NCBI RefSeq assembly: GCF_965363235.1
Contig: NC_134839.1
Span: forward strand, 75,479,410-75,543,409
DNA: 64,000 bases
From: Mytilus galloprovincialis
Lineage: Eukaryota; Mollusca; Bivalvia; Mytilida; Mytilidae
Reading direction: 5' to 3'
Under the pieces are notes generated by a model. That model was not told where the DNA came from. It searched no databases and saw only the letters and a program-made list of their open reading frames with translations. Of this stretch, positions 32,846 to 61,588 are shown piece after piece. The stretch's first letter is position 1; each line of letters opens with the position of its first letter. The position numbers and the translations under genes are program-made.

Positions 32846-34861
32846 TTAAAACCCTTCCTCTGGAAGTTCGAAGACCAAAAGTGTATTACTGTTACAGCTA
32901 GTCGGGTCTAAAGACACTATCAAGCTATCTTCATTTGAAGTCAAACATACTGTTTGAGGACTAAACGAACCATTCCATCGATTAACAACTTCCCTTATAA
33001 AACGTCCGTTGTGGTCTATGAAATGAATGTTGTCCGATCCCCATCCAACTACAAAAAAATCATCATTCTTTCTCATAACTAAACCTCTTGGTGCGTTCAA
33101 CCGATCGTGAGAATAGACAAACCGACGAAGTGTAGTACCGACACAACAGTAAATCTGGGCACGGTGACAGTCCGAGACATACAAATGTGATCCACTATTA
33201 TCAAACTTTACATACCACGGTCTCAAAAACAGTGATTGGAAATTTACCTCTGGACATATTGTCATTATTGCATCACCATTGTCAGTTATCATTTTTACAC
33301 ATGTGTCCTTCGCAAACGGACATGTGTACGCGAATCGTTTGTTAGAATGGGCTATACCATAACAGCTATCTTTAGTGGCTATTGTTTTCTTCAACTGTAT
33401 CGAAGAACCTATGCTGAAAATTGAAATTACGGATTGTGATGGTATTGTAGCAGCTACTTTGTTTTTACCTACAATAGTAACATCAAATGGAGAAAACTCT
33501 AGTTCATGTTCATTTTGTATTTGGAATTCTGCATCAAATACTTTCAGTTTTGAGTTATTTTTGTCTGTACACACCAGAATATTGTTCGGTAGCATTACCA
33601 TTCCAGTAATAAAGCTTGCGTGTTCATCAGTTTTGGTTTCCACCGAAAATTGTTGCAATGGCAGCTGATAAGATAACATCGACACATTATCTTGGTACTC
33701 ATTCTTGTTTTCTTGCATCAATTCCTGTACTTTTCCTAATCCAGTTATAAGATTTACGTTTTCTTTTTTAATACTTAAATCGCCCAAGTTACGGAGAGAC
33801 TTTGTTATTTTTTCAAGATCATCATTTATAGTGAAAGTTACCCGTGAACTGGTCAGCGGTTCATGAATATCAAAAATCATGTCGTTCAACATTTGTGCTT
33901 CTTTCTCAATCTTGTTTTGCCATTGTATGAAATGGACATCATTTGAATGTTTAGAAGCTGCTTTCAAAACACTGTGCATGTTGTGTGACGTGTTATAAAT
34001 TCCCTGGACACCCTGTACATCAGTATCCAGGACTTGTTTCTCCTTTAAACATATATCGTCCAGTTCTTTCAAACTTTGGTTTTCATATTTTGTTAGAATA
34101 TCATTAATTTTACGCCTTACAGACATAATCTTTTCTTTTAATTTTGATTTTGTAACTTCAAGCATTTCTTTTTCGCTTTCACGATTTTCTAAGAGTATTT
34201 TCGCGTTTCTTTCGTGTTGTCCTAGCGAGTGTGATAACGTTTTACTGTCATTACGGATTCGTTCTGCATGCACTGATACCAGGAAAACTGATTTACAAGA
34301 ACGATGAGTGGAAGCTTTACAAGAATTGCAAACAAATTCCTTGTGATCATAACAATAATGATCTAAGTCTTCTTGGTGTTCCTCACAAGGAGGAGGAATT
34401 AGCAGTTCTTTTAACGGTTGATTTTTTAATTTTGCTAGATCGGTTATCTCATGGCCCATGGTTGTTTTGAAAGAACTGTGTGATTCAACGCACGCATCGC
34501 AAAGTGGTTCTTTGCATTTGATACACCACTGAGTTGCGGGTGCTGACTTCTGCTTCCGGTTACATGGTTTACAGTTGACTTTTCCCGTCTTGAGATTGTA
34601 GCCATCAATTACATTTGATGCCAGTTTATTTTTGGGTAAATGTTCACCCCAATGTTTCATCGTTACGTCATTTGGGAACTTAGTCACCCTGGAACATATT
34701 GGACAATAGTACGTACGACTTGTTTCCGATTTATTTCGCTTCTTTATATCATCATCAATACACGAGCGACAAAAAGTATGAAGACATGGAAGATTTCTTG
34801 GATCTTTTAAAGTTGTTTTGCATAGTCCACAGTGAATTAAAGGCTTCAGTTCAGTATCCAT
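32846..34861 (-). CDS. TRIM-type RING/B-box protein with C-terminal propeller-like region
   Basis: 671 codons in one uninterrupted exon. The RING is C11-x2-C14-x11-C26-x-H28-x2-C31-x2-C34-x18-C53-x2-C56. B-box 1 spans about 97-137 (C97, C100, C113, C116, C121, C124, H128, H137) and B-box 2 about 159-189 (C159, H162, C170, H173, C178, C181, H186). A heptad-rich, Lys/Glu-rich coiled coil follows (about 200-345). From about 415 on there are repeated beta-type blades (for example ITGMVMLPNNILVCTDKNN, YVKFDNSGSHLYVSDCH, GLVMRKNDDFFVVGWGSDN) typical of the NHL-like ends of mussel TRIM proteins. It is predicted to be a RING E3 ubiquitin ligase, likely cytosolic, with the propeller binding the target. 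The start is the first ATG. Just upstream (34879-34880) is a splice-acceptor-like TTTTAG, suggesting a 5' untranslated exon farther right. Such genes are strongly expanded in bivalves; the substrate is unknown. Confidence 0.9.
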   Translation of the reverse strand: MDTELKPLIHCGLCKTTLKDPRNLPCLHTFCRSCIDDDIKKRNKSETSRTYYCPICSRVTKFPNDVTMKHWGEHLPKNKLASNVIDGYNLKTGKVNCKPCNRKQKSAPATQWCIKCKEPLCDACVESHSSFKTTMGHEITDLAKLKNQPLKELLIPPPCEEHQEDLDHYCYDHKEFVCNSCKASTHRSCKSVFLVSVHAERIRNDSKTLSHSLGQHERNAKILLENRESEKEMLEVTKSKLKEKIMSVRRKINDILTKYENQSLKELDDICLKEKQVLDTDVQGVQGIYNTSHNMHSVLKAASKHSNDVHFIQWQNKIEKEAQMLNDMIFDIHEPLTSSRVTFTINDDLEKITKSLRNLGDLSIKKENVNLITGLGKVQELMQENKNEYQDNVSMLSYQLPLQQFSVETKTDEHASFITGMVMLPNNILVCTDKNNSKLKVFDAEFQIQNEHELEFSPFDVTIVGKNKVAATIPSQSVISIFSIGSSIQLKKTIATKDSCYGIAHSNKRFAYTCPFAKDTCVKMITDNGDAIMTICPEVNFQSLFLRPWYVKFDNSGSHLYVSDCHRAQIYCCVGTTLRRFVYSHDRLNAPRGLVMRKNDDFFVVGWGSDNIHFIDHNGRFIREVVNRWNGSFSPQTVCLTSNEDSLIVSLDPTSCNSNTLLVFELPEEGF

Positions 34862-37800
34862 TTTATTACGCTTCAGATCTAAAACAAATATAATAAAGAT
34901 TATTATTGATTGTGGTTACAAGCTTAAGATAAATGTACCAACAGGAATATGTACTTACTTATTGGGATCCATCCCCACATTTCGTACGCGTATATACAAA
35001 TTATCGTTGATAGTTCAATACATACAATTTTGATTGTTAGTTTACTTTGCATTATTAAGAAATTTGACCTTGAAATAAATTGTATTGATTGGTGAATTTA
35101 AAAATATTTCAAAAATTTTACAAAACATACATGATCACCTGCATGTAAATTCATTAAGATACGAGGTTGACAAATCATTTGCCAATGTTTAACTTAGTAA
35201 TATTTTTGTGCTTTAATTTCTTGGTCAATCAGTTAAACTTTTCACAGTTTAAAAGAAATATATTAAAGTTTTATTATATTTTCTTCTATATGAAATTCTA
35301 AAGCATATTCTTTGATATAAAATCTCTACTTTTACCTAACATTTTATCTTTACATTCACGATGAATTAAATCTAAAGTTGTCAATACACAAACGATCAAT
35401 GAAAAAATCATTTAAAAAATGTACAATGAAACCAAAAAATAATTAAAAAGATTATTGAATATTTTTTATATTACAACGATCGATAAATATTTCAAATATA
35501 AAGCCTACCATATTATATATGTTATTATTATAGTAAGAAATTCTAATTGTTTACTCATTCAAATTGAACATCATTTGCCAAAGAAACATTTTGTTAAAAA
35601 TCAATATTTAGAGCTGGTTTTGAGAGTAATTATTATCTATCTTGGATTTTTATTTTCACCACTGGAGAGCAAAACAATTAAATGTAGATCTAAATGGAGC
35701 ATGACATTGATCTTCTTTTTTTAAAACAGATTTAAGTATTTTCAATTTCTTCTGAAAAAACTATTTGAACTCTTGATTTCTTATTTTAACTTTTGATTTT
35801 TTTATATATAATATTTTACCAAAGTTTATCAACACATTTTACTCCAATGATTCCATTCTGTTTCGCGTTTGAAGGAAATGTGCCATTTTCATTTATTTTA
35901 TTTGGTTATTAAATTCGAAATCCGTTTTTTCTTAAGAAATTGTTGCCATATAATAAAACCTCATTTTTCAAAAGTTTTTTGGCAAGATCAAATTTTGTGT
36001 GAAAATTTGTTTCAAAAATAATACTAAGCAACAGATTGATAGTAATATCCTGTTTCAGCCGACTTTAATAAAAATAAATGCTGCATATAAGACAGTTATT
36101 ACAAAAACCTACAAACACAATACTTATATTTGGAGCAAACATATTGTTTTCAACAAAAGGCAACAAAGCAGAAGTGGCTTCGATCGTATTATTTTTAAAA
36201 CAAGTCATTAGTTGATAAATGAAGGGTTATCTAGAATGCTGGACAAGTGAATGAAATTGTTGCAATATATCGTTGAATAAAAAAAAATGTGTTTGCTTGT
36301 AAGTGACACATACCTGAATATTATAAAACTTCTCCCTGAATTGACTGTCATCCATAGTTTTAATATGAGATAGTCATTGAACTACACGTTGATCGTTTTA
36401 GATCAGTTATATTGAATACAAGTTTATGATTTAAAATTCTGTATATACCACTCAATAGGTGCGATACTATTAAACTCTATACCAAAAATAAAGTCATTCA
36501 AACCTCATAGCGTAATATAAGAAAGTTTTTATAAAGGTTTGCGTCAATGAATTTATACATTTTTGATTTCAATAGATCTGTTGAATATGTGTGATGGTTT
36601 ATTTGATTTGTTCAAACATTTAAACAATTTTGAGTTTAGCTTTGTTAATTTATTTGCCAATCAACTTCATTTTGTAGTCTCTATGGAACATATATGGTTG
36701 AATATATCATTATATTTTTATAAGATCATGTATTGTGGCATCCGGTATGTATGGCAACCCTGAATGCCATCAACCTCACTAAAGCCTGAAATAAATATAC
36801 AAGGTTGCTGTCACCCTGATAAATTCATACTTATTTCCTTCGAACTCATTGTATAAAAAACATTATTTGCACATGCTTGCCTGGAGAGCGGACGGTCCCT
36901 GGCGAGAGAAAATAAAACCTGCACATTTTGTTTGAAGCTTCTCCAAGCACGATGTGTCAAAGAACAAGAGAACAGACTGACGTCTCAGAGTCTAGAATAT
37001 ATGCCCGGGTGGTCCTGTATGTTTTATGAAGACTCTTACCTAGTGAGTAAACACGTTTGAACACTCCAAGTGTCAGTATATTACAGACAGGGTTAACTTT
37101 ATATCTCACTTTTAAAATGGTTGTCCCAACCGGTGTATTATTTCTGTACTTCATAGAGAATGTTGGACAAGTATTTTATAGTTTTCTTTGCCATATAAAA
37201 TGTACAACTTGTTGATATAACCCTCGCAGTTGTTTTTCCAAATACATATGTTTGTTTATTTGTTTTTTCTGTACACGTTGTGTTTTTGTGGTGAATTGTG
37301 GTGAATTGTAACACCATATCCCTTCCTTTCCATTATTAAATATTTGTCGCTGGACGTTTATTACCCATTTATCATTTAATTATGTTTATATGATTATATG
37401 ATGTTTAAAGAAGCTATAGTTGCTTTCATCCACGTCCTCTGGTGTCTGGTTGACATTTGTTTCATTCACAATCATACCGCATCTCTTTATTTTTAATTCT
37501 ATAAACCTTTTTACAGCGACAAAATAGAACTACTTTTGTCGAAAACAGTAACTGCGAAATAAGTACTAACAATCCATACGCTGTTTACACTCCTCAACAT
37601 CTATCTAATATATGTGGTTTGATAGTCAATGAGACAACTATACAAAAGAGGTCGAATGCAGTGGATTAAAGTAACTATAGGTCACTACACGGCCTTCAAT
37701 GACGAGAAAATAAAAAACCAAAACCCGTTAAGTCAGCTATAAAAGAACATACGTGAAACATTTCAAACGAAACATTCACCGACTTCATTTTTGACAAAAC

Positions 37801-43700: not shown

Positions 43701-46700
43701 AACAAAAATGATCAATTGAAAACGTTTTGGTTAAATTTCATTATCAATTCGCTCTAGCTGCGCAATTAATTTCTAAGAGTAGCGCAATTCGCTCTAGAAG
43801 CGCAATTAATTTCTAAGAGTAGCGCAAATGACTCACAACAATATCAATACGTTGTTAACTACATGTATCAGTGTTGTGACGCTCCTTAAAATTTGAATAA
43901 TAATCGTAAAAAGCCATGTTTCAACTTTGTTACAAACTACATGGTGTATCTTTTTAGGCAATATGAATCACATCATCAATTTAAAATAGTTGATTGATGG
44001 TGATTTCAAATATACACCATATATCTGTAAATGATTATTCTTACATGTTCCCATCTAAAATAAGTATCAGGTTTTCGTACATGTATGTGCCTCGGGTAAC
44101 AATATAGAATAGAGTATATTAAGTGCAAATAATTGATGATTTACTAACGGATGACATATTCTTCTTATCTTCCCATAGTCATAATTTAGAAAGTTATTCG
44201 TTCATTCAATTCGATGGCGGGTCCATCCGACGGGTTCTGGGGGTCGGACCCCCGCCCTTTTTTTGACGATCAATGCATTCGCATGGAGGCATATGGTTGG
44301 TAAACCCCCTTCAATAATGTTTGGATCCGCCCCTTCAATTTTGACGGCACTTGTTTTAAACAACTAATAACTGTACATATTTTGACAAATTTCAGTTTCG
44401 ACAACACGGGATAAAAAAGGTATATTAGTGTGAATCATCATGTATACAATATTAAAATACTAATTTACCTACCTAACTATTAAACTAAACTTTAATAATT
44501 CTGCTTTTGGAAAGGAGTTACAGTATACTAAAACACAAATGCGGTATATAATCCATTAAGCCTTAACCGCCATTACATAATTTGTTCTGTTTATGTTCTC
44601 ATTTGATTTTTTTGTCCCCTGAGTAGGAATGATTGTTTTCGAGGTAGCTATTACAACTACCTGCTGTGTTTATTTTCATTCGTCAATAGCTATTATAACA
44701 TCTTAATATTAGCCAATCATCCGAATGTATATACATTTTATAGGAGAAAGCAATTGTCAAAGATAAAAAATTAACTGGAAACAATTGGCCTGTCGAAATG
44801 TCACAACTAATATTGATATGAGAAGTGAATGTCCTATATTACTGAATGTGTTTAAAATAAAAGTATTTTGGGGTATACACTGTACTGATGAAACAAATCG
44901 ACAAATTCACCAGGTCAAACTGAGAAACAACGCGCCTCTAAAGCTATGTAGTTTCTGTATTTGTAGTAAAAGAACATTAAATTTTATTTGTGATACTAAT
45001 GTCAAATAATAGGTTACAGTATATTCTTGTTTTCTGTAATATGCAGTTAAGAAAGAGTGTTTGGGGCTTTGTAGTACTCCGTTTTATCTTCAAATGAAAT
45101 AAAATAAAAAAAAACCAACAAGACAAATAAAGCACTGGTGTTTTTGTTCAAATCCTGGCTGGTCCATATAGACACTCATGAACGTACTGTATATTATTAT
45201 TGGTTCAAAGAAAAAAAATGGAAACCGTATTGTAAATATTGTTCGAGATCAGTAGTCAATAGTAAAAATTCATTATTTCCCTATATAATAATTTCATATA
45301 AGCATTGTGAATGTGAAAAATGTACCTGGGGAATTAATTGGTCAATTCTGTAAACATTTCAGGAACATGTAAAAAGAAAACAGATTCACAAAATTTTGCA
45401 GCAATCAAATTTTAGAATGTTTAAAATGAAAATAAAATCACAATTCCTTTGGCTTTTGTTGGATTAATTGAATTATTAGGAGGGTAGGGTTTAACAACTT
45501 TATAGAAAACCTATTATATATGATATTAACAGAGTTGCATGTGTATGAATGTATTTTAGTGAACCTATTTCAACACACGATTCATTAAGTAACAGATGGC
45601 CTAGCCCAGAACTGTGTTATAGAGAATACGTTATATACAATAAGTAGACGAGTAACTTTATTTATTTGGTACATTACGTATTTCAGTTGTACGCCAAGAT
45701 AATGAACGAAAAACATCAAATGTTATTCAGCAACCGCCCTCTGGGCCTCGTAAAATGTTTATTCTAAAGGCGTCTCCTCAAGAACCATTTGATTACACAT
45801 GGAGCAGTAATCAGAAAAACGTTCCGGCATCTTCCGTGCGGCAGAATATTCAAAATCAACAAGTTAATCCTCAGTCGTTTAATCAACCAGGAAATCCTAA
45901 TAACGCACCGTCATCTTCCGTGCGGCAGATTATTCCAAATCAACAAATTAATACTCAGTCGTTTAATCAACCAGGAAATCCTAACAACGCTGCGTCATCT
46001 TCCGTGCGGCAGATTATTCCAAATCAACAAATTAATACTCAATCGTTTAATCAACCAGGAAATCCTAATGTACTTTCCTCTACTTTGCGGAGTCCGTCAA
46101 ATCAGCAACCAAATGATAGAGTTATTGGAAACGTCAGAAGTAATGTACAACAAATTGCTCCCCAAACGAATAACGGGGTGCAATTTCCACCAACGAACAT
46201 TATTGTACAACCGTCGAATAATATTGTACAACCGTCGTTGAATAGTTTAACTAATATGCAACGTTCACGACCGGCTCTTAACACAGGTCCATCTAATATA
46301 AGACCGGCACGTAACCAATTGACAGGAGCGCAAACCGCCTTAATTTCTAGTAACCAACAAATAACAAACTCCAGAACTTCAATGATGAAAAATTTATCTT
46401 TACAAAGAAATCAGCAACTTATGTTACCTGTGTCTACAAATATAAGTAATCAAAATGTGCCAATGCAATCACAATCAACAAGTATGCAACAACCTAACAA
46501 TGCACTAATATTAACAGGTGGAGCACAATTAAGTGATCCGAATATGAGATCAGTACCGGCTGATCTATTGAATCCAGGAATGCTACCCGATATTCAACCA
46601 GAAATTGTAGCTCAGAAAATCGAAGTAAGAACGACAATTCGGACACCTTTGCTATTGCGAATTTCAAAAACAATATCAATGGGAGTAACCACTAATCCAG

Positions 46701-47646
46701 TAACTAAGATTAACCGTATTAATAAAACTAATAAAGTAGCCATGCCAGTTAACAATATTGGAGAAAGGCAATCTAATAACTTAGCGGCGTCTATGAAAAA
46801 GGACAATGAATTTCGTCAACTTAATGGTAAGTATGTTGTTTTACTGTCCTCGAAAAGCACTCGCCAACAAATGATCGGACTCTGTACAATAAGCTTTAAC
46901 AGGATAGTCAAACATGCATATTATAACAGTTGTGAATTAACTATTATTTTTGTTAATTATATGAGTAATTATCAACCATAGAAATTCCATTAATCATAAC
47001 ATATTACTTCCAATAAGCTTTGCTTTCTATTATACAACAGCTTTATCAGGATAGGATACGATGTGATGATAGTTATTATGTGCAGGACTGCGTCAATTGT
47101 TGTATTTTTCGTGTATAGGTCAGGCATTTCCTTTTCCTTTATTTGTCAGAGTCGTTTCGAAACGCCTCTAAGGTGTATATAAAAGACAAGTATTCCTATT
47201 AAGCTCCTGGACACATATTTATTTGGTAAATGCAACACTTTTATGATTAAAGTTAAGCTGCAAGGTCAAATAAGATTAAAGATAATTTTATAACAGGAAA
47301 TGCGATGGAACTGACATACATTTAGTAGCAATAAAACATGTCAAGAAGGTTAGAGTTTTACCACGTTTGCAAACTACCAAAGCTACATTCGCTTATGATA
47401 ATGCTAACATAAAATTAAATCAACCAATAGTATACATGACCATATTGCATACGTCTGAATAGCGATATTTTGTTTTCCAAACATCTATTGTAAGCCAATG
47501 TATTAAGTTAGAATACTTTATGAGTTATAATTTAAAGCTCAGTTTATATTTCTGTTTTTTTTTCAGATGACAAGAAGAATTCTGGATGCACAGCTGTGTT
47601 ATCTACCTTGATTATGTTAATACCTCTTGTTTTTATAATTCTGTAA
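40717..47646 (+). CDS. Secreted reeler-domain protein with N/Q-rich repeats and hydrophobic C-terminal anchor
   Basis: Six coding exons by splice consensus and phase: 40717-40963, 42658-42886, 43622-43692, 44396-44419, 45687-46826, 47567-47646 (1791 nt, 596 residues, stop TAA). An in-frame ATG lies 54 bp upstream, but the one at 40717 gives a classic signal peptide (MNFRVLQLCFVKLIFVNLILG) cut before YPNGAP, the usual start of a reeler domain. The domain spans about 22-175 (C at SCLNL, VYQPC, ACQNG; RGFIIQARTEFGG; THSNNN; VQFQWLPEP; TFRFISTVV). After it come a Ser/Pro/Asn/Gln-rich region with three 28-residue repeats (about 238-321) and a hydrophobic tail (STLIMLIPLVFIIL) after KKNSGC, fitting a GPI signal or a tail anchor. 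Reeler domains occur in reelin, ferric-chelate reductases and insect/mollusc defence proteins; no reductase domain is present. Role outside the cell likely; exact function unknown. Confidence 0.8.
41820..41960 (+). mobile_element. Penelope-like 3' tail fragment in intron 1 of the reeler gene
   Basis: It contains GACGCCTCTGGGTGCGGGAG, TTTCTCGCTGCATTGAAGAC, TTGCCTGTTCTATGATCGGG and ACATTCCCCATTTCCATTC, closely matching the 3' end of the element at 11035-12880. It is the least diverged of the short tails and has the same orientation as the gene. Confidence 0.75.
43745..43824. repeat. Two-copy 40-bp tandem duplication in intron 3 of the reeler gene
   Basis: CAATTCGCTCTAGCTGCGCA, then ATTAATTTCTAAGAGTAGCG, is followed at once by a second copy differing only at CTAGAAGCG. 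The period is 40 bp. It lies 53 bp after the donor of exon 3. Confidence 0.9.
44205..44335. repeat. GC-rich repeat fragment (GGTCGGACCCCC) in intron 3 of the reeler gene
   Basis: The stretch GATGGCGGGTCCATCCGACG, GGTTCTGGGGGTCGGACCCC and GGATCCGCCCCTTCAATT stands out from the AT-rich intron. It contains GGGTC/GGACCC palindromes. Similar phrases end several animal MITEs. I cannot define its ends. Confidence 0.4.
45830..46081 (+). repeat. In-frame 84-bp coding tandem repeat (three units)
   Basis: The phrase TCTTCCGTGCGGCAG recurs at 45830, 45914 and 45998, a period of 84 bp or 28 codons, giving SSVRQIIPNQQINTQSFNQP in the last two units and a slightly diverged first unit. Units two and three are nearly identical at DNA level, so the expansion is recent. 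A fourth, decayed start (TCCTCTACTTTGCGGAG) follows near 46077. Alleles with other copy numbers are likely. Confidence 0.9.
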
Positions 47647-48658: not shown

Positions 48659-51600
48659 TTATTTTTTATTTGGTTCTAAGTATCTTGAAAGTAGAAGATT
48701 ACTGATATCGAAATCTGCTCTGGTAATATTTCCTCGCCTATGATTATCAGCAGAAAATTCTAAAACGGCGTTCATTGCAATTCCTAGCCTTCCAACAAAC
48801 TCAACTGAAAAAGATGTAAAATTATCTCTTGCAGTATACATAAAATACAGAAAGGGATGACGCCCGTCACCCTTTTTCAGTTTTAAAGATCCCTCGGGGC
48901 GAATTCGAATCCGCTGATGGGAAGGCAAAAAAAGATCTCCCGATCTGTATGCCAAGCTGTTTTTCTGTTTTTGATGCTCTAAAAGTACAGAATCTACACG
49001 TTGTTTCAAGCAACATTCTGCAATGAAATAAATTGTTTTGTCCGTTTTCTTTAGAAAAAACACTAAGACTGTACACAGCATGCGGGTACCATAAAAAGCT
49101 TCTAATTCGTCCGTCAATATTGTTGTAAGTTTCTTGTGGTCAAGCTGGTTTGGTTTAATTCTTGCAAAAAGCACACTGAAATAAAAACAATTATTGATAG
49201 TTTTAACAACCCAATAATCAAAACACACAGTTTCAAAGATATATATATGTATTATTTTAGGAAATCAGCGTGCCGAAACTATAACAGAAACGAAAGTATT
49301 ACAATATTGCTTGATATTCTTTGAGACGAGTTTCAAGCTTCTAGTATTGCATATCGCAATAATGACTACTTAGTCAGCTTCAAACATTGTACGTTATATT
49401 TATCTTTGAAGGTGTTTTGTCTTTATTATAAGAATGGTATTTATTACTATTGATGATTTTAAACCATTTTTTTTCTCATGTAAATTTTGTGAGTACTAGA
49501 TATGTTGAAGGTGATTATTTTTCTATTGATTCAGTACTTTGCAAATGTCTAATTGACATTAAGCTAAATAGTCACCAACACACTTCATGATCATGAATAT
49601 TAATTATGCGTAACACATCATCATGTTCCAATTACTGGTCATCTACACTGGACATATACTAGTTAAACCATAAGGAGACAAGTAACGAAGTGATTTTATT
49701 TATATCACAGGAACTGACCAAAAGCGCGTCAAAAAAGTTTTTGAAAAAAAATAGTAGAAAGTAAACGTTCGTTTGTTTCTTTTGACAAGTGTTTATTTGT
49801 GGTTGCTTTATAGTGATATTTTTCGTTTTTTATGCCCTACCTAGGTATCCAGTATACAGATTGGATGTTTTCATAGTATAACAAAGAAAAAACAAATTTA
49901 TGATATATACAGATTTATAAGCTATATGACGACCACGGGCTGAAAAAATGAGAAAATATTTCGGTTTTATTTATAATATGACTTGCTAAGTAATATCATG
50001 ACATTGCATAATCGAAGCGTTGTGAAAATAACCATCATAAAAAATAAAATAAACTTATCGTTATTCTCCTGTGTCTTTAATATTTACCCATCAGAGTCTC
50101 GTATTTGACCAGTATACTCCTTTGTGTCAGTCTTTTTACCTGTTGGCAGAACTACGATTTCACTCTTATTGAAAACAATCATTTTTACGTGTGGATTATC
50201 TGAACCAACTAGTTCTTGGCTACTTTTCGGGTCACTGGTTAGTCTGGCAGAAACACTGATGGATCCCTTTAGTTGTGTCTTGTTAAAATCTAATGTTATC
50301 TTGTGGCTCACGGCTTCAACCAATGTCTTAGAATAAACGTCCTTGTTCTCAAGTTTTCCAATAGGTCTTTGTATCTAATAAATATGTTGTAGCAATATAA
50401 TGTTCACAAAAGGAGGTGAAATGTTTGTTATTACATTTTTTTCGTGTTTCCAAAATGTCGATTTTGAAAAAAAATCTAAGATATTCTGTGGTGTTTGTCG
50501 ATGATTGAATAGTTCGTTGTTGTTCTGCGATTTGCATGTAGTGTCGACTATTGTATTATTTGTTTGTCCGTTTCTCTTTGATCACTGTTTTTGCCTGTAT
50601 TTGTGCTGTATTTCTGTCACGTAGTGTTGTCATTTTAACGATATTATTTAACATTGTCATGAAGCAGGAAGTTTGGCTAGCTATTCAACCAGATTCAACC
50701 CACCATGTTTTCTTAAATTGTCCTGTACCTAGTCAGTAATATTGCAGTTGTTATCAAATAGTTCATTTCTATGTATGTTGGCGTTGGTTCCGCTTCCTTT
50801 GTTTTCCTCTTATAATTGATGTGTTTTCCTCAGTTTAAGTTGGTAACCCGGACTTGTTTTCTCTCAATCGATTTATGACTTTTGAAATTGGTATACTACT
50901 ATTGCCTTTATTTAAGATATCGTGTACATGATATAAACCTAGATGAAACATTTGTTTTTATGATATTGTTCTTAAAACACTGACAACAACGACGAACTTA
51001 GCAAACATATATTACGTAACGTTAAAGTCAAAACAAACGACTGTCAATCGATTTGACAATAATGGAATTTATGTATTATACTAGTACATGAATTCGGTTA
51101 TTTTAGTGAAACGTGTGTATTTCGTCGTTACAGTGCTTTCTTTGTCATATTTTATTTAGTTGTTAAGATCTACAGTTATGACGTCAAAATTTGAAGTAAA
51201 CGTTCTTTTTAACTTTTAGCAGCGAGAGAGCAAAAATAATTAGATGGAAGACTTTTTCGAAAAAAAACCATCCTCCATCCAATATATATAGAAATAAAAT
51301 AATAAAAGTGATATATACATACCATATACTCTATTTTTAGTTCTACCTCTGTACAGCCTTTCGTAAAGTTAACTGTCATGCAATCATCCCCTCCAGTTTT
51401 TATCACAGATCCCTCAGACTTCACGTCATGTTTAAATTTTTTTGGGCGGGCCACAAGCAAAAAGCTATTCATTCGACAGCATGGAAATTCAATATAGTCA
51501 AACTGTCATTATAATGAACAATTAGCATTTAATTTCAAAACATCAGTATTTTCAAAAATTTTGTTACAGAATATTTTTTCGTAAAGTACTCGTAACGACA

Positions 51601-54013
51601 CATATACAGTGTTCGTAATAACTCGTTCCAACCAGCGTAAAACATCGTTACCTGACTCCGTGGACAATTTAGAGATGATGTTTGTCATTTATTCATTCAT
51701 GTAGGCGATTGTATTCGATCTTGCAAACCGTAAGGGTAAACCTGTGTATGTGTAGGCACAATTCGTAACATTCAGGCAAAAAAAGGTGAACATGTTTAGC
51801 TTGTTCTAGAATTAAATACACACTAATCGTAATGTCGTCTAAGTACAGTTATTGCGTCATTATTTTGGTCTTGTTTGTCATTGTTTAGTTAAGTGTTTCT
51901 GAATATCAAAATAAATTAACATTGTAATATGACCTTAAAGATGTTATGAAGATAAGGTAAGTGTTTTAAAGTGTTTAACTAATATGTGTGTACAGGCATT
52001 TGTTTTAATTATATAGATACTGGTAATAAAGAAAATATAACGCTTGCCTACACAATTTAAAAGAAGGTAATACGGAGTCCTGTTTCTTTTTCCTGCGTGT
52101 TTCAACATATTATTTGTTATAATTTACAATTGCTTTTAAATATTATGAAAAATAGAAACTAATGAAAAAATTTCAATATGAAGATTTATTGTCATGGTTT
52201 GTTAAAGTAATGTCAAGCCGTTTTTAAAACATTTATGAATCATACATATAACCCAAAATGAAAGAAAAAGGGTATGACAAGGAGAGGCTTAAATATTATA
52301 GAAGTTTGTGCAAACGTCCGACTTGTATTATGCTAAACTTTATGTGATGAGGTTACCAGTTAATTACCTTTACATATGCTGGCACCTCCTTCCATCTGTT
52401 CTCTGCATCTTCAATGAGCGCCCAATAATCATTAATGTCGCTGTCCTTGACGAAGGAGTGGTATACCGGAACTTGAAGGTACACTTTCTTCTTATATTTA
52501 TCGCGGACAGAAAATACACACTGTTTTTCTTTAAAACGTTTACTTTCTGAAGGATCGGTCAATTCTTCCAATCCGGGTGTATCAGGTTGGCCTAATAGTC
52601 TATATATGTCCGACACCAGCGTGATATGATTTGGAAGACTTACATCATTAAGATAGTCGTCTCTTTCCTTAGATGTCCAATTTTCCACTTTAAAACATTT
52701 AAATGGTGCTGAGAGTTCTGGTTCTGTCCGTAATCTGATCCCCTGCCCTAAAACTACAATACCGTGTCCTTCAACGTAATACAAAAAATCATTCAAAACG
52801 TGTGGATCGGGTGAATGGTCGACAATCCTGGGGGTGGGTGGTGTTGATGGTCGTTCTGGACTTTCTTCTCTCTTAAATCAAAAACATGACTTTTCAAATA
52901 ATAATTTATACAAATTATCAAATGAAACTTTTTATCAAATGCGTACTTGTCATCCTCCACCTGGTGTGTACCCTAGAGAAATAAGAATCCTTACATACCC
53001 GTTCTGATCACCTGAATCCCTGTCACTTTTAATAAATTTGCATTTCTAAATTGTTATGCCCCCGCATACTTGCATAAAAGGTGCATATCATTTCCGGATA
53101 GCATTTCCGGATAACTCCCCCTACAGTTTGAATGCTAGGAAGTTTTCACTTTGCAGGCTGTTTGTACATATATTGAAGGTGTGCATGTGGTCAGGGTTTT
53201 GATTTTTATTAATATTTGCTCTTTTGGGAGATAAGTAAAAAAACTTTGTCATTTTTGGAGTATATCGTTATACTTGCATAATAAGTGTATAGAATTTCCG
53301 GTTAACTTTTTCATTAGTTTGAATGCTAGGAAGTTTTCACTATGCAAAAATAGAATTAACTGTAAAAAGTTCATATTCATAAGAACAAATTAAAGAAAAT
53401 TATAACACGCGAATAAGATGATAATTTACCATATCACTATAGCACAATGACGGGATGTTTAAGAACAGAGACACGTCAAATGGATATTTCCACATATGAA
53501 CTTAGCAGTAAAAGCTTTATTTATAAAGACAAATTAAAGAATACTATAACAATTTATAAGGATGATAATTTATAAACTTGATATGAAAATCTAGAGTTTT
53601 GAGTATCGGTATATCATTGTTGATCCTTACTTATTTAATTCAGCGTGTATTAAGTATTTGAGTAATTTACTGATATTTGTTTTCCGATATTTGTATTGTG
53701 GTAAAAAGTACTTGTTTTTAGTTTCGTACAATTTTTAAACTTATATGTTTACTTTTTATTCCATAGGTCATTCTTAAAATTATGAAACGGTAGTTTTTTC
53801 TGCAAGAGCTATTCTAATACTTTATTGCATTTTATACAGGATTTTATACCGTTTCAAACTATATCATTTGCATATATTTGAAAGGCTGGATTTTTGTTTT
53901 ACAATAATATTGTTTCCACTGTAAGAAAATATTTGTACTTAAAATTAAAAATGATAATTCATTACCTTTTCTGGTCGCGGTTTTGAAGGTCCAAATATAC
54001 GCGAAAACATCAT
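48659..54013 (-). CDS. Beta-rich adaptor-like protein, tentative ZU5/UPA-like (paralogue 1)
   Basis: Five exons by splice consensus and phase, in coding order: 54013-53966, 52871-52368, 51502-51323, 50374-50088, 49175-48659 (1536 nt, 511 residues). The protein starts MMFSRIFGPSKPRPEKREES, then a Pro/Ser linker. Residues about 42-184 end with a beta-type stretch (KKVYLQVPVYHSFVK, DDAENRW-like W-K-E-V). Exon 3 gives CCRMNSFLLVARPKK, then EGSVIKTGGDDCMTV, reminiscent of the switch from one ZU5 module to the next. The last exon carries LTDELEAFYGTRMLC, ECCLKQ and SHQRIRIRPEGSLKL, which resembles UPA domains of UNC5/PIDD-type proteins. No death domain, signal peptide or membrane segment is visible. 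The family call is by eye and weak; the gene model is well supported because the paralogue at 57214-61588 has the same exon plan. Confidence 0.65.
50560..50925 (+). repeat. GGTTTCCCTC/ATGACTTTTGAA-type repeat fragment (intron of paralogue 1)
   Basis: GATGTGTTTTCCTCAGTTTA, TTGGTAACCCGGACTTG, CAATCGATTTATGACTTTTG and CTATTGCCTTTATTTAA occur in order. The same series, more diverged, is found at 58170-58330 (GATGTGTTTCCCTCGATTTT..ATTATGACTTTTGAACAGCG) inside the other paralogue and, weakly, at 31500-31640 and 63575-63710. The orientation is opposite to the gene. The ORFs here are chance. Confidence 0.5.
53050..53545. repeat. ATGCCCCCGC-type repeat with internal duplications (intron 1 of paralogue 1)
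   Basis: It begins TTATGCCCCCGCATACTTGC. The block CTTGCATAAAAGGTGCATAT..TTTGAATGCTAGGAAGTTTT (about 53068-53146) returns at 53272-53338. Later GACAAATTAAAGAATACTAT (53529) echoes GAACAAATTAAAGAAAATTA (53384). Two direct duplications therefore lie side by side. Non-coding. Confidence 0.5.
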
Positions 54014-54572
54014 ACAGTACTTAGAAGTTTATCATTTGACATTACACGTCCAAAACCACATTCTTCCTGATTGTATGCGTAAATCGATGATTTAACATTA
54101 AGACATTGCTGAATAGCATTTTTAATTGATTGAATTATAACTGAGATAATGACTATTTAAATGACTATTGTAATCTATATATACTTTGTGTAAAACATCA
54201 TGATAGTATGACGTCATTGCTCATAAGGTTCAAGTTTAAATTAACGATAGACAAATTGTGCTGATTAAATTCCGATAAGTTGAAGTATTATTACAGTAAA
54301 ATTATCATTTTATCATAACATGTTAGCGTTTATGCTTACAATATTCGTTTTAATTCTTATGATCATTTCACAGCTCTCTGGTCAGTTCTTCGGACAATAT
54401 CGACATTTTAAGATTAAGATAATAACACAATGTTGACTTCTGTCCCCCTATTTTTGACATTTTTACCTTTTATGCCTGTTTGTTTAGTTTACAAATCGTT
54501 CTCATTATAATGGAACTTGATACGACTGTCATACAAGTGAAAGTTGTAGCTAGCTATAAAACTAGGTTTAAG

Positions 54573-55285
54573 GTAGCACAATACAAATATTTTTTCATTC
54601 CCAATCAGACATCTTTAAACTGATGTAATTTATTTCATCCTTCTTTATAATTTATAAATGAGGTACCAAAAGAAAGAAGAAAGAATAATCTTTCAAATTG
54701 TGATAATTTCATTATGACATAATTATTACATAATCAATTGTTATGTAATTAGTTGCTATATTGTGATGTCCACACTTGAATGAATTTAGCGTCTTTGTTC
54801 TTCATAGCATCCCAAAATATTTTATAGATTCTTGTACAACACAGCTTGACCTCAAAAACTTTGTCTCAGATTTCCAAAAACATCAATAGAACAAGTTTTA
54901 TACCCAATTGAGTTTAGTGATCTCTTATGAATTGATGTTGCAAACTTCATTGAAGATTTATGAGAGAATGAAATACAATAGGAAAAATCTGAGACACTGT
55001 TTTGGAGGTCAAACTGTGTTGTGCAAGAATCTATAAAATATTTTGGAATGCTATGAATAACAAAGAAACTAAATTCATTCAAGTATGGACATCACAATAT
55101 AGCAACTAATTACATAACAATTGATTTTGTAATAATTATGTCATAATGAAATTATCACAATTTGAAAGATTAATCATTCTTCTTTCTTTTGGTACCTCAT
55201 TTATAAAATTTAAAGAAGGATGAGTGGAATTACATCAGTTTAAAGATGTCTGATTGGGGATGAAAAATCTTTGTATTGTGCTACC
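54573..55285. mobile_element. Near-palindromic 713-bp TTAA MITE
   Basis: The element begins GGTAGCACAATACAAATATT and ends AATCTTTGTATTGTGCTACC, with TTAA directly outside both ends (54569-54572 and 55286-55289). The two halves (about 54573-54920 and 54935-55285) are inverted copies almost to the centre; for instance GATGTCCACACTTGAATGAA (54760) pairs with TTCATTCAAGTATGGACATC (55075). TTAA duplications fit piggyBac or Kolobok-type mobilisation. It carries no gene; the minus-strand frame at 54852-55082 is chance. It sits upstream of paralogue 1. Confidence 0.9.
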
Positions 55286-55289
55286 TTAA

Positions 55290-57213
55290 TTTGCCGTTTT
55301 CTACATCTTGAATTGCCTGTACCAAGTCAGGAATATGACAGTTGTTATCTATTTGTTTGATGTATTTGATTAGGGACTTTACGTGTTAAACTTTCCTCGG
55401 AGTTCACCATGTCTGTGATTTTATATGTAATTTAATTTTATAGCCATTATTTCTTTAAATGCATTTGAATCTTTGAAGTATATCAGGTGATATGTTGAAA
55501 TTGAGAAAAATCAATACGTTTCCATTGTTTTTTAACGAATCGGTTTTATCAAGTTAGAGACTGTACAGATATATACTTATTTATTTAATGTTCTCAAAGT
55601 TTGACAGACACACACACACATACAATTGAGCTATTCTGATATTTAATATGTGTTTTCTTTATCACAAAAATTTTGTAAAAAAGTAAGAACTGTCTATCGA
55701 ACTTTTAATTCCGTTTGTTTTATTGATTAAAAGAAAGAAAAAAAAACCGCGCGCTGAGGGTCTTATATTCAGCAGAATTGAAATATTATATACATGTAGA
55801 CATGTTTTCAGATACCAAGTTATCTATATAATGGATATACTTTTATTTTTTCTCCGACTTAATTTTTCAGATAAAAAATTTAAATGATGCCATGAAAGTT
55901 AAAACCCTTATGTGTACCTTTTTGATATAAAGCATAGCGATGCGATAATGTTTTTTTTTCATACTTAATATAGAAGCAGGAAAGAAAAACCAAATCAGTT
56001 ATAAAATTGATAATCGACAAACAAAACATGACAACAACTCTTTTAAAAAAAAATAATCCATGAGTCCGAAGCGCTTTTCTGGATTTACCTTCATCAGGAT
56101 CGCTCAAAGCTAAAAAATGATTTTGTTATTTAAAACAAACTGAAATAGAGAGTTGCCATCACTGTCTCTTGTTACACAATAATATTCACTTTCCGATTTG
56201 TCACACAGAGGGAAATTTTCAAAAAGTAAAGGTGAAACAAATAAATGATAAATTCATCGAATCGATTGCATAAGATTCAATAACACTGACCAGAGCTTAA
56301 AAGTCCATATCAGATTGAAATAAATCCGTTGGAAAGGGACGCTACCTAAAGTTTTATAAAATAAAGGTTGAATCAATTATAGTATTTGTCTAAAAAATGA
56401 TTGACAAAAGATAGAAACATGTGTATTAAACCTATTGACAGGATTTTACTTGACCACCAACATATTTTTGGAACATATGGATTAAGTGATCCCTGCTCTT
56501 GAATAATAGAATCCTGTATCAACTTATCAGAAAATGATAAGCACAGTAAGCACAGTAAAACAATATCAAACGAGTTAACCTATCACAGATTGTTGAACTG
56601 TACGAGTTTTGCAAAATCGATTATTTTGTATGTTCCCTTTACAATATATGGTCTAATATAGAAACATGGTAGATTTATGTTTTAAACACGCTGCAATTCC
56701 TTGAATGTTATTTTACATGCTTTCTAATTGAAAGGTAGAAGGTCTGTTTCTATATACATGCATTCAACGTAAGAAACAGATGATAAAACCCTTTCCCATG
56801 TTAAAAAACAATATAGAAATAAAAATATGTTGCATGTTTACCATAAAACAGGTATCCATCGTATAATCAAGTCAACATAATCAACTACAGGGTACTATAC
56901 ACCCTTCAACAAGACTGATTATACTAATATTGAGCACCTACTAAAACTATTTTTTAAAGTATGATTTAATTCGTAGTACATATTGGTTTCATAATATTGT
57001 GTTGGAACACTTAACATTTATCTTATCTACTAATACAGCCTGCGTGTACAGATCCTTTTGTCAAAATATACTCGTTTGTTTCCACAGAGAGCATAATGGT
57101 GTAGGAATTGAAGTTATATCGAATTATTTATGTAACATAGTTTAATTAAAATATTGCTTATTGTATATGCATACATTGCATAATTGATTCAAGATTACAT
57201 TAAAATCCATACG
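55290..57213. other. Gap between the two paralogues, no supported gene
   Basis: It contains a short CACACACACACA run at about 55609 and small fragments without clear identity. The frame at 55880-56107 (minus) has no motif. Any 5' untranslated exon or promoter of paralogue 1 would lie here or in the preceding MITE region, but I cannot place one. Confidence 0.35.
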
Positions 57214-60200
57214 TTATTGTTCGTATCGTTCTAGTGTAGTGTTTGATAATATAAGACCTCCGACATTTGGATGTTTACTTTCCGTCTCCGAAACGAAAGT
57301 ACTACAATCAGTTGGACAATGTATCGAGGAAGCAACGTTATCGACACCTGCTTCTATTGATTTCAAATCACTGCTTTTGGTAATTTTAACAGTTTCTATT
57401 TTTTTGGTGTCTATTTTAGATTGGTTCAATTCTCCAATGTCCAATCGATTTTGAAGAAATGGCAAACTATCTAGATTGAATTCAACTTTCATTATTTCTG
57501 TGTAGGTTTTGGTATTTGTGTCTGTTGAAAAGCATAGAATGGCATTTGGTGATCCTCCCATTGTTCTGTTTATTTGAACCTGGAAAGTTAACGCATTTTC
57601 ACTTGAGACTGACAAGAAAAGCATCCACAAATGAGCACCACTGCCTGATTTTAGTCCGATACATCCTGCCGGACGTAATTTGAATCGTTGGTATGGTGTT
57701 AAACCCAAATTCTCGGACTTGTGAATAAGAAAGTGTCCCTCTTGCTGTTCCTTAGTTATCAGTAACTTGGTCTGTTCTGCGCGACAACAATTGACTCTTA
57801 GCCGTAATGTTGATGAATTTCTCTTCAGAAAATGAACTAAAATGTTGCACAATATTCTACTGCCATAAAACAAATTCAATTCATCTGTCAATTCTATCTT
57901 CGAGATTTTTTCTTCTTTAATCTTAAGTACTGCTGCAAAAGATACTCTGTAAAAAAATGCCATATAGAAGTTCAGTTATAATGGTCAAACACCAAACATA
58001 TAAAAAAAAGATAAATAGTCAAGCATAAACTTTTGTAATAGCATTCACCCTGTTTAATGCGAAGTCTACTAACTTTCTTTTTAAATTGAGTGTGAATTAA
58101 TTATTTCTTTCGACGTTTCCATCAATCTCTACTTTAAATTTCTTTGTACAAAGTAAATAAAAATATGTCGCTTGTTTTTTGTTGCACTTCAGTGTTTCTG
58201 TTGCTTTGTTGTTTTTCCCTTCTTCTTGATGTGTTTCCCTCGATTTTAGTGGATTTGTTTGTTTCTCAATAGAATTATGACTTTTGAACAGCGAAATACT
58301 TCTGTTGCCTTTATATAGTACAACATATTTCAAAATAGGGTTTATTGGATCAATTTTGTTTAGGTTGTTAATGAATCTCTTGTAAACCTCATAACGACTT
58401 TCAGAACCAAGAATATTACAGTTTGTGTTCTTGTCAAATATAGCCTATGGTAGTTATTTACAATTGCGTCCTTTGGTTTATTGAAAAAGTTGTCTCATTG
58501 GCAATCATATCATAAATGATTTGGAATCATCGAAGCTTACTTTAGTGGTGGTAAAGTACACATCATTTGAAAAACTTATTATAAAAATCACAAATACCCG
58601 TCATATCCATAAAGAGAACCACTGTAAATAGAATCTGCACTCTTCTTTACGGAATCAACAATAGAAGCGAATCCATTCTTGTAACCAACCAATAAAACTT
58701 CTATTTTTGACTTATTCTGAGGCTTAAGAGGAACGTTGGTGAAGGATACCACTACCTTAATTGGTTTTAAGAATTTCGCCTTATCATATTCAAAGTTGAC
58801 TTTGTTGCTCACATGTTTGACATGTCGTGTAGATGTGTGAATATTTCTGGAAAACTCAACGTCTGGGGTGTGTACCTAAAACAATCCAAGTACAAAGTGT
58901 ACAGCTATATGCCAAAATTTCATTTAAAATAAATGTGTAAAAAATATGTACATAAAAAAATAATGAGTACATGTTTTCATTCTTATATTGTGGGGTTGTT
59001 TGTCGATCATTCAGACATCAAAATATTGCTTTCTTCAATTCTTCAATTTGTTACATGTATTGTAGTCTTCACCAAAAACCAAAGAGAAATTATATTTTAA
59101 TAATTCAATCGGGATTACATGTATTGTGTATTTGGCCTTTTACGCATTTTTTTATTCGATTGTCACTGAAGAGTCCTTTGTAGACAAAACGCGCGTCTTG
59201 CGTGAATATAAAATTGCAATCCTGGTATCTATGATCAATTCAATTATTATATTATGTTATATGCTCAATTCAATGATCAGATGTGTATCGGATTCTGATT
59301 AGATTAAAACAATTCCGAAAACCACACATCTAATGGACAGGTTTAAGGCAAAAAGGAAACATCTCTTGGTTCACATTCTATACTAACCATATACCTAAAG
59401 TTTTCATTTGATTTTACACAATCCTTATCAAACTTTAGAATACATGCACAGCCATCACGGATGTCTATTTCAGTTCCCAATGGATTAACAGTCGCATTCA
59501 TTCGCTTTGTCTGAATAACTATTCCAAAACTATGAAGTTGATTGCAGTAAAATTCAGCAAAACCATTCTAAATATAAATATAATATCATATAAGTAAGGG
59601 AGAAAGCATCATATATATCATATCAGCCATTGTTGTCTTAAATAGCAAGACAAATTTCCATTTTCAAATTTTATTTCTGAAATAAAAATAATCTGTAGAT
59701 AAAAATAAAAATATTTGGTGTGAGTGCCAATGAGACAACTCACCATCCAAGTAAAAAGTAAACAATTATAGTTCAAAGTACGATCTCCAACACGAAGCCT
59801 TGGCTCAAACGGAACAGCACGTTATAAAGGGCCCCAATATGACTTGTGCAGAACAATTCCAGTAAAACTGTTTTATCTTTTAAAAACGTGGATGCTAGAT
59901 TTTGTTTTGTAACAATATTTGATTTTTTTAACACCGAAAAAAATTAGTTATTTTATAAAAAAAAACAAATCCAAATTCAAAACAGGTAAAACTATCAAAA
60001 CAAAACAAACAAAGCATAAAAAATCTATCAAGACATAATAAGGTAACCAAAGCTACCGTTCTAAAACTAAGAACACTCTTCCAGAACTTTTTTTTGTATT
60101 GAAATTAGTTAATTACGAAATATTTTAATGAATTTTATGTGATATATCAAAATAGATAATCACTTTTTGAAGGACAATACATGTAACTCATAATAAGATG

Positions 60201-61588
60201 GTTTCAATTATATTACATTTAGGAAATGTTCTACTGCTGATAATTTCTATGGATGTTTTTGGAGAGATAAAGATAAAAAGCAAAACAATAGATTGATTTT
60301 GAAATACATATTGAAAAAAAGTTTTAAAACATTCATGAAAAAAGAGATTCACAATTTTCCTAGAACTCAAAATATTGTATACACTAACTTAATTCCTTTA
60401 ATAACTTGTATGAGGCAAACAACCAGACAATGTCTTTTTAATTGATTACTAAACACATTTCATAAACTGAATGAAAATGTTGCGATCTTTGCAAATTTTT
60501 CGATTTTAGGACTTTATTCATATTATGTTTTAATTCATGGCAATGTTTGATCATTCAATATGACTGTCTTTAATTACCCTTTCAAAAAGTTTTTATTCTT
60601 CGATAAGATATCAGTGCTACAAATTAACATTTTCTTAGTTTAATTTTCAAGTGAAGAATAGCAGAAGTAACAGGATGTTACCGCTCTGACTTGCCTTATC
60701 TCTGCCAGAACCATTCTGGCACGCATTAGTTCCGCTCATACCTCTTCTGACTCGTCTTACTTCAGTCCCGAGTTTTAATGGTGTTCATGTTGTTTGCTTT
60801 AAAGGTTTTTTTTTGTAAAGCTTTTTGTTTGATTAACGTCAAGTGTATAGTGTTTTGGACTGTTGTTTGTTCGTCCTTAACATTTGACCATGTTTTTGTT
60901 AAAGGATTATGAATACTCTTTTATAATGTACCCTCCAAAAAAAAATAACTAAATAGGAAAATGATGCGTTTTTAGCTATTTATTGGACATAAATCTGAAC
61001 AATAAATACTTAAATGTTATAAATAAGAGGACATGTGGATATTGTTAGGAAAGACACGAACCCAACTATTCAAAAACAACAAATTACTATAAGTATAGGT
61101 GTAGCAAAATTTACCTTTACAGTGGCTTGAAACATTTTCCACTCTAATCCGTCATTTATCCAAGCAAAAACCTCGTAAAATTGGCTCACAGTCTTTTCAA
61201 CGAAAGAATCTCTAATTTTGACACTGAAACTCACTTGGTCGTTGTACTGGGAAGGTATATTAAATTTAAAAGAACATGTCTTATCTAATTTTTCTTTCTG
61301 AACTTTAACACAAGGATTTCTATTTTCTTCGTCCTGCCGTGGAACAGTTCTGAAGATATCAGACACAAATGTTTGTTCCAAAGGGAGGTTTAAGAATTTG
61401 AGTGAATTATTTTTCTCATCTGCTGTCCATTTGGTGGTTATGAATTCATTCAAAATACTATATAAACTGCTTGGACCTGTAATACTGACATCATTTTCTA
61501 GGTTGATAGTACATGTAGTAGTTCCAGGTTCTGTATCATCTTCAAAGTCGGACGAATAGCAGTCATCACTTGAGTTTCTATCATCCAT
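57214..61588 (-). CDS. Beta-rich adaptor-like protein, tentative ZU5/UPA-like (paralogue 2)
   Basis: Four exons in coding order: 61588-61115, 59567-59388, 58875-58598, 57946-57214 (1665 nt, 554 residues). The start ATGGATGATAG is the first in frame. The N-terminus is acidic and Ser-rich (MDDRNSSDDCYSSDFEDD), unlike the paralogue. Then follow SFKFNIPSQYNDQVSFSVKI, W-K-M-F-Q-A-T-V-K at the exon end, FYCNQLHSFGIVIQTKR opening a 180-nt exon, and a final exon with LTDELNLFYGSRILC, CCRAEQ and YQRFKLRPAGCIGLKSGSG. Introns fall at the same places and phases as in the gene at 48659-54013 (after VK, after YM, and inside a D-G pair). It has a unique C-terminal tail of about 75 residues rich in Lys, Ser and Thr. 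No death domain, signal peptide or membrane helix. The ZU5/UPA relation is inferred by eye; a role in intracellular signalling is possible. Confidence 0.65.
58140..58330 (+). repeat. GGTTTCCCTC/ATGACTTTTGAA-type repeat fragment (intron of paralogue 2)
   Basis: It contains CACTTCAGTGTTTCTGTTGC, GATGTGTTTCCCTCGATTTT, AATTATGACTTTTGAACAGC and CTTCTGTTGCCTTTATATAG. It is the same family and orientation as the fragment in the intron of paralogue 1, but in the following intron (between the last two exons here), so the two insertions look independent. Confidence 0.5.
59150..59245 (-). repeat. Mussel GTACCAGGATTATAATT-type repeat, minus orientation
   Basis: Read on the minus strand it gives ATACCAGGATTGCAATTTTA, ACGCAAGACGCGCGTTTTGT and CTACAAAGGACTCTTCAGTG, matching the plus-strand copy at 62189-62340. 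The family is very common in mussel DNA. Confidence 0.6.
59715..59870 (+). repeat. CAATGAGACAAC-type interspersed repeat (intron of paralogue 2)
   Basis: GAGTGCCAATGAGACAACTC, ACCATCCAAGTAAAAAGTAA, AGTACGATCTCCAACACGAA, GCCTTGGCTCAAACGG and AAAGGGCCCCAATATGACTT occur in order. This copy differs from the others in its second half, so it may be a separate subfamily. Confidence 0.55.

Follow-up and report, generated by a model that had tools for sequence, protein, structure and literature searches.

Tandem Mytilus galloprovincialis genes of an expanded ZU5-ZU5-UPA-like family modelled without a death domain

What might a ZU5-ZU5-UPA protein do if nothing follows its UPA domain? The question is raised by two neighbouring genes, here called A and B, on the minus strand of a 64,000-nucleotide stretch of the Mytilus galloprovincialis genome (NC_134839.1, positions 75,479,410 to 75,543,409; hereafter the window, in whose own numbering both genes are given). 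Ankyrin and PIDD share ZU5-ZU5-UPA as a supramodule, of which UNC5 and the FIIND of NLRP1 and CARD8 have a shorter form. In PIDD and NLRP1/CARD8 the ZU5-UPA part is a switch that restrains a death fold until it is cut or released. A preliminary description had likened A and B to such proteins by eye and noted that no death domain follows. With moderate confidence, we read them as tandem members of an expanded ZU5-ZU5-UPA family that ends after UPA, whose products would act as a non-cleaving scaffold or decoy.

Two genes of a large mussel family

We rebuilt both gene models from the window sequence, with splicing deduced from that sequence and from paralogues. Gene A encodes 511 residues in five exons and gene B 554 residues in four; every intron is GT..AG and both frames are open, in agreement with the lengths and frames first proposed. 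Three introns are common to A and B (after VK, phase 0; after YM, phase 0; inside a D-G codon, phase 2), and the first two of them flank an exon that is 180 nt long in each gene, so that the shared exon plan described earlier was recovered from the sequence. Gene A has one additional first exon of 48 nt (53966..54013), the least certain of all, with an ATG and a GT donor present. Its exon 2 (52368..52871, 504 nt) encodes the N-terminal tail and the first, putative ZU5 and has paralogues on C2, the contig that holds the window, at 36.2 and 75.5-75.65 Mb. Exon 3 (51323..51502, 180 nt) and exon 4 (50088..50374, 287 nt, phase-2 end) carry the predicted first and second halves of the second ZU5, the former in order with ankyrin ZU5-2, and exon 5 (48659..49175, 517 nt with the stop) the UPA and a short tail. 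In gene B, exon 1 (61115..61588, 474 nt) corresponds to the N-terminal tail and first, putative ZU5, exon 2 (59388..59567, 180 nt) and exon 3 (58598..58875, 278 nt, phase-2 end) to the two halves of the second ZU5, and exon 4 (57214..57946, 733 nt with the stop) to the UPA and a tail of ~80 residues. Protein identity is low, as had been noted: BLASTP aligned A and B with 122/451 identities (27%), at an E value (3e-53) that argues against chance likeness.

The last exons of A and B were then used as queries against the mussel's own genome (1.38 Gb, 331 contigs). A gave 23 matches and B 16 (E up to 1), the latter contributing only one extra item, a fragment at C2:75548883; a query with an outer member, i.e. 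one of the more distant copies described below, contributed two more places (C14:23499428 and C2:101001013). The family thus has at least 25 last-exon places on five contigs, a lower bound because only the best candidates were scored. Eight of the copies form one array at C2:75.528-75.646 Mb, all on the same strand and two of them inside the window; with the one fragment on C2, they bear out the suggestion that tandem copies continue past the 64 kb. The places outside the array are at C2:36.2 Mb (two), C2:101.0, C2:107.5 and C2:112.66 Mb, and on C6 (two), C11 (six), C14 (three) and C5 (one). First-exon searches gave 7 and 9 matches. The genome also has seventeen matches to myticin, a peptide typical of mytilids, against none in 14 control genomes, which suggests a Mytilus-like source.

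The exon plan is largely kept across the family. The 180-nt exon was present in 8 of 10 genes examined (A, B, E, K2, F, C6a, M and C14:23.44); in copy H the corresponding exon is 182 nt with an internal stop, and in C11:17.98 the acceptor could not be fixed. A phase-2 donor at the same place and phase was found in each of the 17 copies with an available exon 4. Some copies carry in-frame stops, three in the last exon (C2:75623774, C11:17904684 and C11:18053232) and two, H and D, within the first exon. The start codon of gene B is conserved in its nearest copy, E. Between B and E, the nonsynonymous rate (dN) is 0.087 against a synonymous rate (dS) of 0.243 (ratio 0.36; NG86, 499 codons), pointing to purifying selection on the encoded protein; dS was saturated (>2) in the other four pairs.

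Domains recovered by paralogue profiles

Single-sequence searches gave the impression of no known fold. The one Pfam match in A and B was a FAM110_N below threshold, in B; with A as query against the PDB, phmmer gave no credible hit; and Pfam, given 32 domain rows and four complete proteins of the family, returned neither ZU5 nor UPA (PF17217). Across the genome, PF17217 had six matches, of which four exceed the cut-off (three in exons of an UNC5-like gene on C9, the fourth on C12) and two fall short of it (C13 and C1, one each); PF00791 (ZU5) had eleven places. None of either set belongs to the family of A and B. Profiles built from paralogues overturned that impression.

For the last exon, a profile was made from 17 of the 25 places (not included were K1, E, 75545160, the three stop-bearing copies and the two places found later). 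Only four PDB sequences matched it at E up to 10, all of them ankyrins and all over the UPA region: ankyrin-3 at 5e-5, ankyrin-2 at 1e-4 and 1.3e-4, and ankyrin-1 at 0.029. Here and below, the matched ankyrin ranges bear the domain names known for the 4D8O module, which the search itself does not assign. An AlphaFold2 model of the last domain from window sequences alone was of low confidence (mean predicted local distance difference test, pLDDT, 51.5), and a fold search with it agreed with the profile. The top six Foldseek rows and the top eight VIA-align rows were all UNC5b, NLRP1, ankyrin or CARD8, which outranked every other sandwich fold; Foldseek rank 1 was the UNC5 structure 3G5B. Identity in the UPA rows was 3-16%, and the aligned ranges are presumably UPA domains. 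By profile and by predicted fold, the last exon appears to encode a UPA-related domain.

Full-length profiles extended the likeness upstream. A seven-protein profile matched three ankyrin sequences only in the PDB (best E = 1.1e-6), and in 6m3q_E two stretches aligned in order, ZU5-2 (chain 168-259) followed by UPA (346-465). Adding outer members (eight proteins) strengthened the matches to ankyrin-3 (6e-9) and ankyrin-2 (1.6e-7 and 5.6e-7), with ankyrin-1 at 0.0077 and a sole non-ankyrin row, unrelated, at 0.78. Single stretches were weak alone in the seven- and eight-protein profiles (best independent E values 1 and 0.03 for ZU5-2, 0.0094 and 0.0023 for UPA); it is the ordered pair of apparent ZU5-2 and UPA that carries the weight.

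The second domain was also profiled separately. A profile of A, B, E, K2, F, C6a and M did not find ZU5 in the PDB or in Pfam. In contrast, a profile of the outer members C2:107.5, C11:17.98 and C14:23.44 had ankyrin-3 (0.002) and ankyrin-2 (0.015 and 0.017) as its top three PDB matches, aligned at the start of ankyrin ZU5-2, followed by two unrelated rows (0.18 and 0.34) and ankyrin-1 (0.43). Outer members therefore appear to retain a more typical second-ZU5 sequence than the window genes. Comparison of the second-domain profiles with four canonical ZU5 of the same genome by hhalign gave E values of 0.008-0.023 with all probabilities below 5%, a weak and uncalibrated signal, against 0.44 and 0.57 for the first-domain and UPA controls. 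The direct link of the window genes to ankyrin is thus weak. The indirect one is good, because the outer members are tied to ankyrin on one side and to the window genes on the other, through the last exon (C2:107.5, C11:17.98 and C14:23.44), through exon 3 of M, which is related to that of the window-type copies K2, F, H and C6a, and through the phase-2 intron. Together these comparisons support a relationship between the second domain and ankyrin ZU5-2.

No credible relation was found for the first domain by profile, and its AlphaFold2 model (pLDDT 35.8) was unusable and discarded; its position and size suggest a first ZU5. Profile and structure checks of the proposed ZU5-ZU5-UPA order thus supported the UPA and, through full-length and outer-member profiles, the second ZU5; the first ZU5 is putative.

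Missing death fold and the ZU5/UPA border

The last exons of A and B end in stop codons right after the UPA or its tail. We looked for Death matches across the genome, scoring the best 150 of 217 candidates. This gave 146 matches, none of them within 490 kb of the C2 array; the one nearest to the C2:36.2 Mb pair was ~496 kb away. The positive control was the set of 11 ZU5 places in the genome, of which five (three on C3 and two on C9) had a Death match within 17 kb. The other six did not, so the proximity test is not fully sensitive. Among the 150 candidates scored, this distance speaks against a death domain merely overlooked downstream of the array, and the models of A and B, as reconstructed from sequence, lack one, as originally stated. 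No CARD was found in the array among the best 150 of 365 candidates scored, which makes this a weaker absence; among the matches listed, the CARD nearest to any family place was at C5:101246346, ~68 kb off.

There is one exception. A family-like last exon at C2:101001013-101001465 (minus) is followed on its own strand by a Death match (C2:100998667-100998894) some 2.1 kb downstream. In a tree of last exons (see below) this exon groups with C2:112.66, the branches being long. It could belong to a related death-domain gene or to a family member in which the death domain was retained, and is possibly a link between the A/B family and death-domain ZU5-UPA genes.

We next compared the ZU5/UPA border. 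CARD8 and NLRP1 are reported to cut themselves at SF/S and PIDD at HF/S; in NLRP1/CARD8 the cut detaches ZU5 from UPA and depends on the second serine (PMC3210808, PMC7794386). The comparison was anchored on the phase-2 intron at the border, and the three residues before the donor were taken as the cut-site triplet in 17 copies (eight outer, nine window-type), an equivalence that holds if the intron has not slid. SFS was present in 5 of the 8 outer copies (C2:107.5, C11:17.98, C11:18.05, C11:17.597 and C5:101.18), KIS in two (C14) and SLN in one (C11:17.90); C11:18.05 and C11:17.90 carry stops elsewhere. In the window-type copies the triplet was DSD in A (50090..50098, minus), GYD in B (58600..58608, minus), E, F and H, DSE in K1 and K2, and GCD in D and C6a, and neither A nor B has an SF/S or HF/S motif at the border. 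The serine position is therefore Ser in 7 of 8 outer copies and Asp or Glu in all nine window-type copies, a serine/acid split between the two groups.

The split was followed on a tree built from 20 of the last exons; it omits 75545160, C14:23499428 and the three stop-bearing copies, and so lacks two of the eight outer copies. The root is arbitrary and long branches were flagged by the program. With nine acid and six serine rows labelled, the states required one change (support 93/94), as they did in 98% of 200 bootstrap trees. The SFS of the outer copies may be a working cut site, judging from the motif.

By eye, three neighbouring canonical ZU5 genes at C3:5.167-5.222 Mb (L002, L004 and L007), with Death matches nearby, have HFT at their apparent border, and one canonical ZU5 gene on C12 has SFT at its apparent ZU5/UPA border.

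Elsewhere in the window, an inverted repeat lies between A and B (54591-54873 / 54985-55267; arms of 283 nt, 93% complementary, spacer 111 nt) with the appearance of a miniature inverted-repeat transposable element. A single-exon frame of 689 codons (32849-34915, minus) looks TRIM-like by eye (RING, B-boxes, coiled coil and a propeller-like C-terminus), and two broken reverse-transcriptase-like frames (18932-20828 and 11141-12651, both plus), also recognised by eye, include one that is LINE-like and a second that is maybe Penelope-like. An open frame of 441 codons (45656-46978, plus) is rich in Q, N, S and P and contains 2.9 tandem copies of an 84-nt in-frame unit. An Rfam scan of the window gave no match.

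Possible roles of a module that ends after UPA

The absence of a death fold, together with a blocked cut site, makes an intact binding module the best reading of A and B. With an acid replacing the cut-site serine, the tandem clade would not cleave itself, and the A/B proteins, probably cytosolic, would stay intact and act by protein-protein contact. They might be scaffolds in the manner of the ankyrin ZU5-ZU5-UPA module, or decoys or regulators, perhaps with an immune role, that pair via UPA or ZU5 with the death-domain-bearing ZU5-UPA proteins of the same genome, such as those encoded at C3:5.2 Mb and C9:75.48 Mb. Tandem expansion, decay and divergence lead us to prefer the decoy or regulator slightly, as a tentative choice at most.

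Known systems differ from A and B in several ways. Ankyrins (ANK1/2/3; PDB 4D8O, 6M3Q and 6M3P), with their ZU5-ZU5-UPA-death domain order, have ankyrin repeats and a death domain that A and B lack, and identity is low. PIDD1 has the order leucine-rich repeats-ZU5-ZU5-UPA-death domain, i.e. two ZU5 before UPA; A and B differ in having no death domain and, like the rest of the tandem clade, Asp/Glu for Ser. The HF/S self-cleavage place of PIDD (PMC3210808) would correspond to the A/B border triplet. The FIIND of NLRP1/CARD8 (ZU5-UPA with SF/S, then CARD) has a CARD and the motif, both absent from A and B, which have two ZU5-like domains. UNC5 (ZU5-UPA-death domain) resembles the modelled UPA fold (3G5B, in the low-confidence model) but has one ZU5 and a death domain and is a membrane receptor.

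The alternative that survives best, although we consider it unlikely, is an ankyrin-type scaffold whose ZU5 binds spectrin-like or membrane partners with no part in death or immune signalling. All significant PDB profile matches are ankyrins, whose ZU5-ZU5-UPA module carries the beta-spectrin site (PMC3663501). However, ankyrins may come out on top because theirs are the ZU5-ZU5-UPA structures that have been solved. Pfam detects ankyrin repeats in neither A nor B, and a tandem array of low-identity, partly decayed copies would be unlike a structural gene.

Rather improbable is a self-cutting release module, in which the whole family would cut at the ZU5/UPA border and free the UPA, the tandem clade by means of another residue. 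The SFS triplets of five outer copies would fit, as would the self-association of NLRP1/CARD8 UPA parts, which promotes CARD filament growth (PMC7794386). Against it, A and B have no CARD or death domain to release, and a Ser to Ala change abolishes cutting in CARD8/NLRP1 (PMC3210808), while all nine window-type copies have Asp or Glu.

We give very little credence to an unrelated family that shares only a beta-sandwich fold with ZU5-UPA. The 3-16% identities, the missing Pfam matches and the weak single-domain profiles would be expected of it, but two domains fall in the right order in ankyrins with nothing else below E 0.1, the outer members form a bridge (ankyrin-3 at 0.002 in the second domain), and UNC5b, NLRP1, ankyrin and CARD8 stand above every other sandwich in the fold search. 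Equally implausible are mostly decaying copies that make no protein, for despite the stops in three last exons, the first exons of H and D and exon 3 of H, the frames of A and B run unbroken through five and four exons, respectively, and the B/E ratio is 0.36.

The preferred reading, an intact and non-cleaving member of the family, could be part of a wider scheme that we regard as speculative: a bivalve-specific, death-fold-free ZU5-ZU5-UPA family with one clade that cuts at SF/S and a tandem clade locked by an acid, the locked proteins regulating the others or death-domain ZU5-UPA proteins. The literature describes TRADD-N proteins fused to a FIIND or UPA-ZU5 module, with TRADD-N expansions in bivalves (PMC8195603), and ZU5 together with NACHT in cnidarians (PMC8260672). 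The open-licence passages on ZU5, UPA and FIIND describe no ZU5-ZU5-UPA family without death folds, which does not in itself prove novelty. What had been put forward as the best candidate for an undescribed signalling family is a real and large family, with signalling as a putative role.

Since neither four whole proteins nor 32 domain rows gave a ZU5 or UPA match, Pfam-based counts of ZU5-UPA proteins would miss the A/B family. A large death-fold-free family with apparently cuttable and locked clades would separate the module's own action from that of the death fold.

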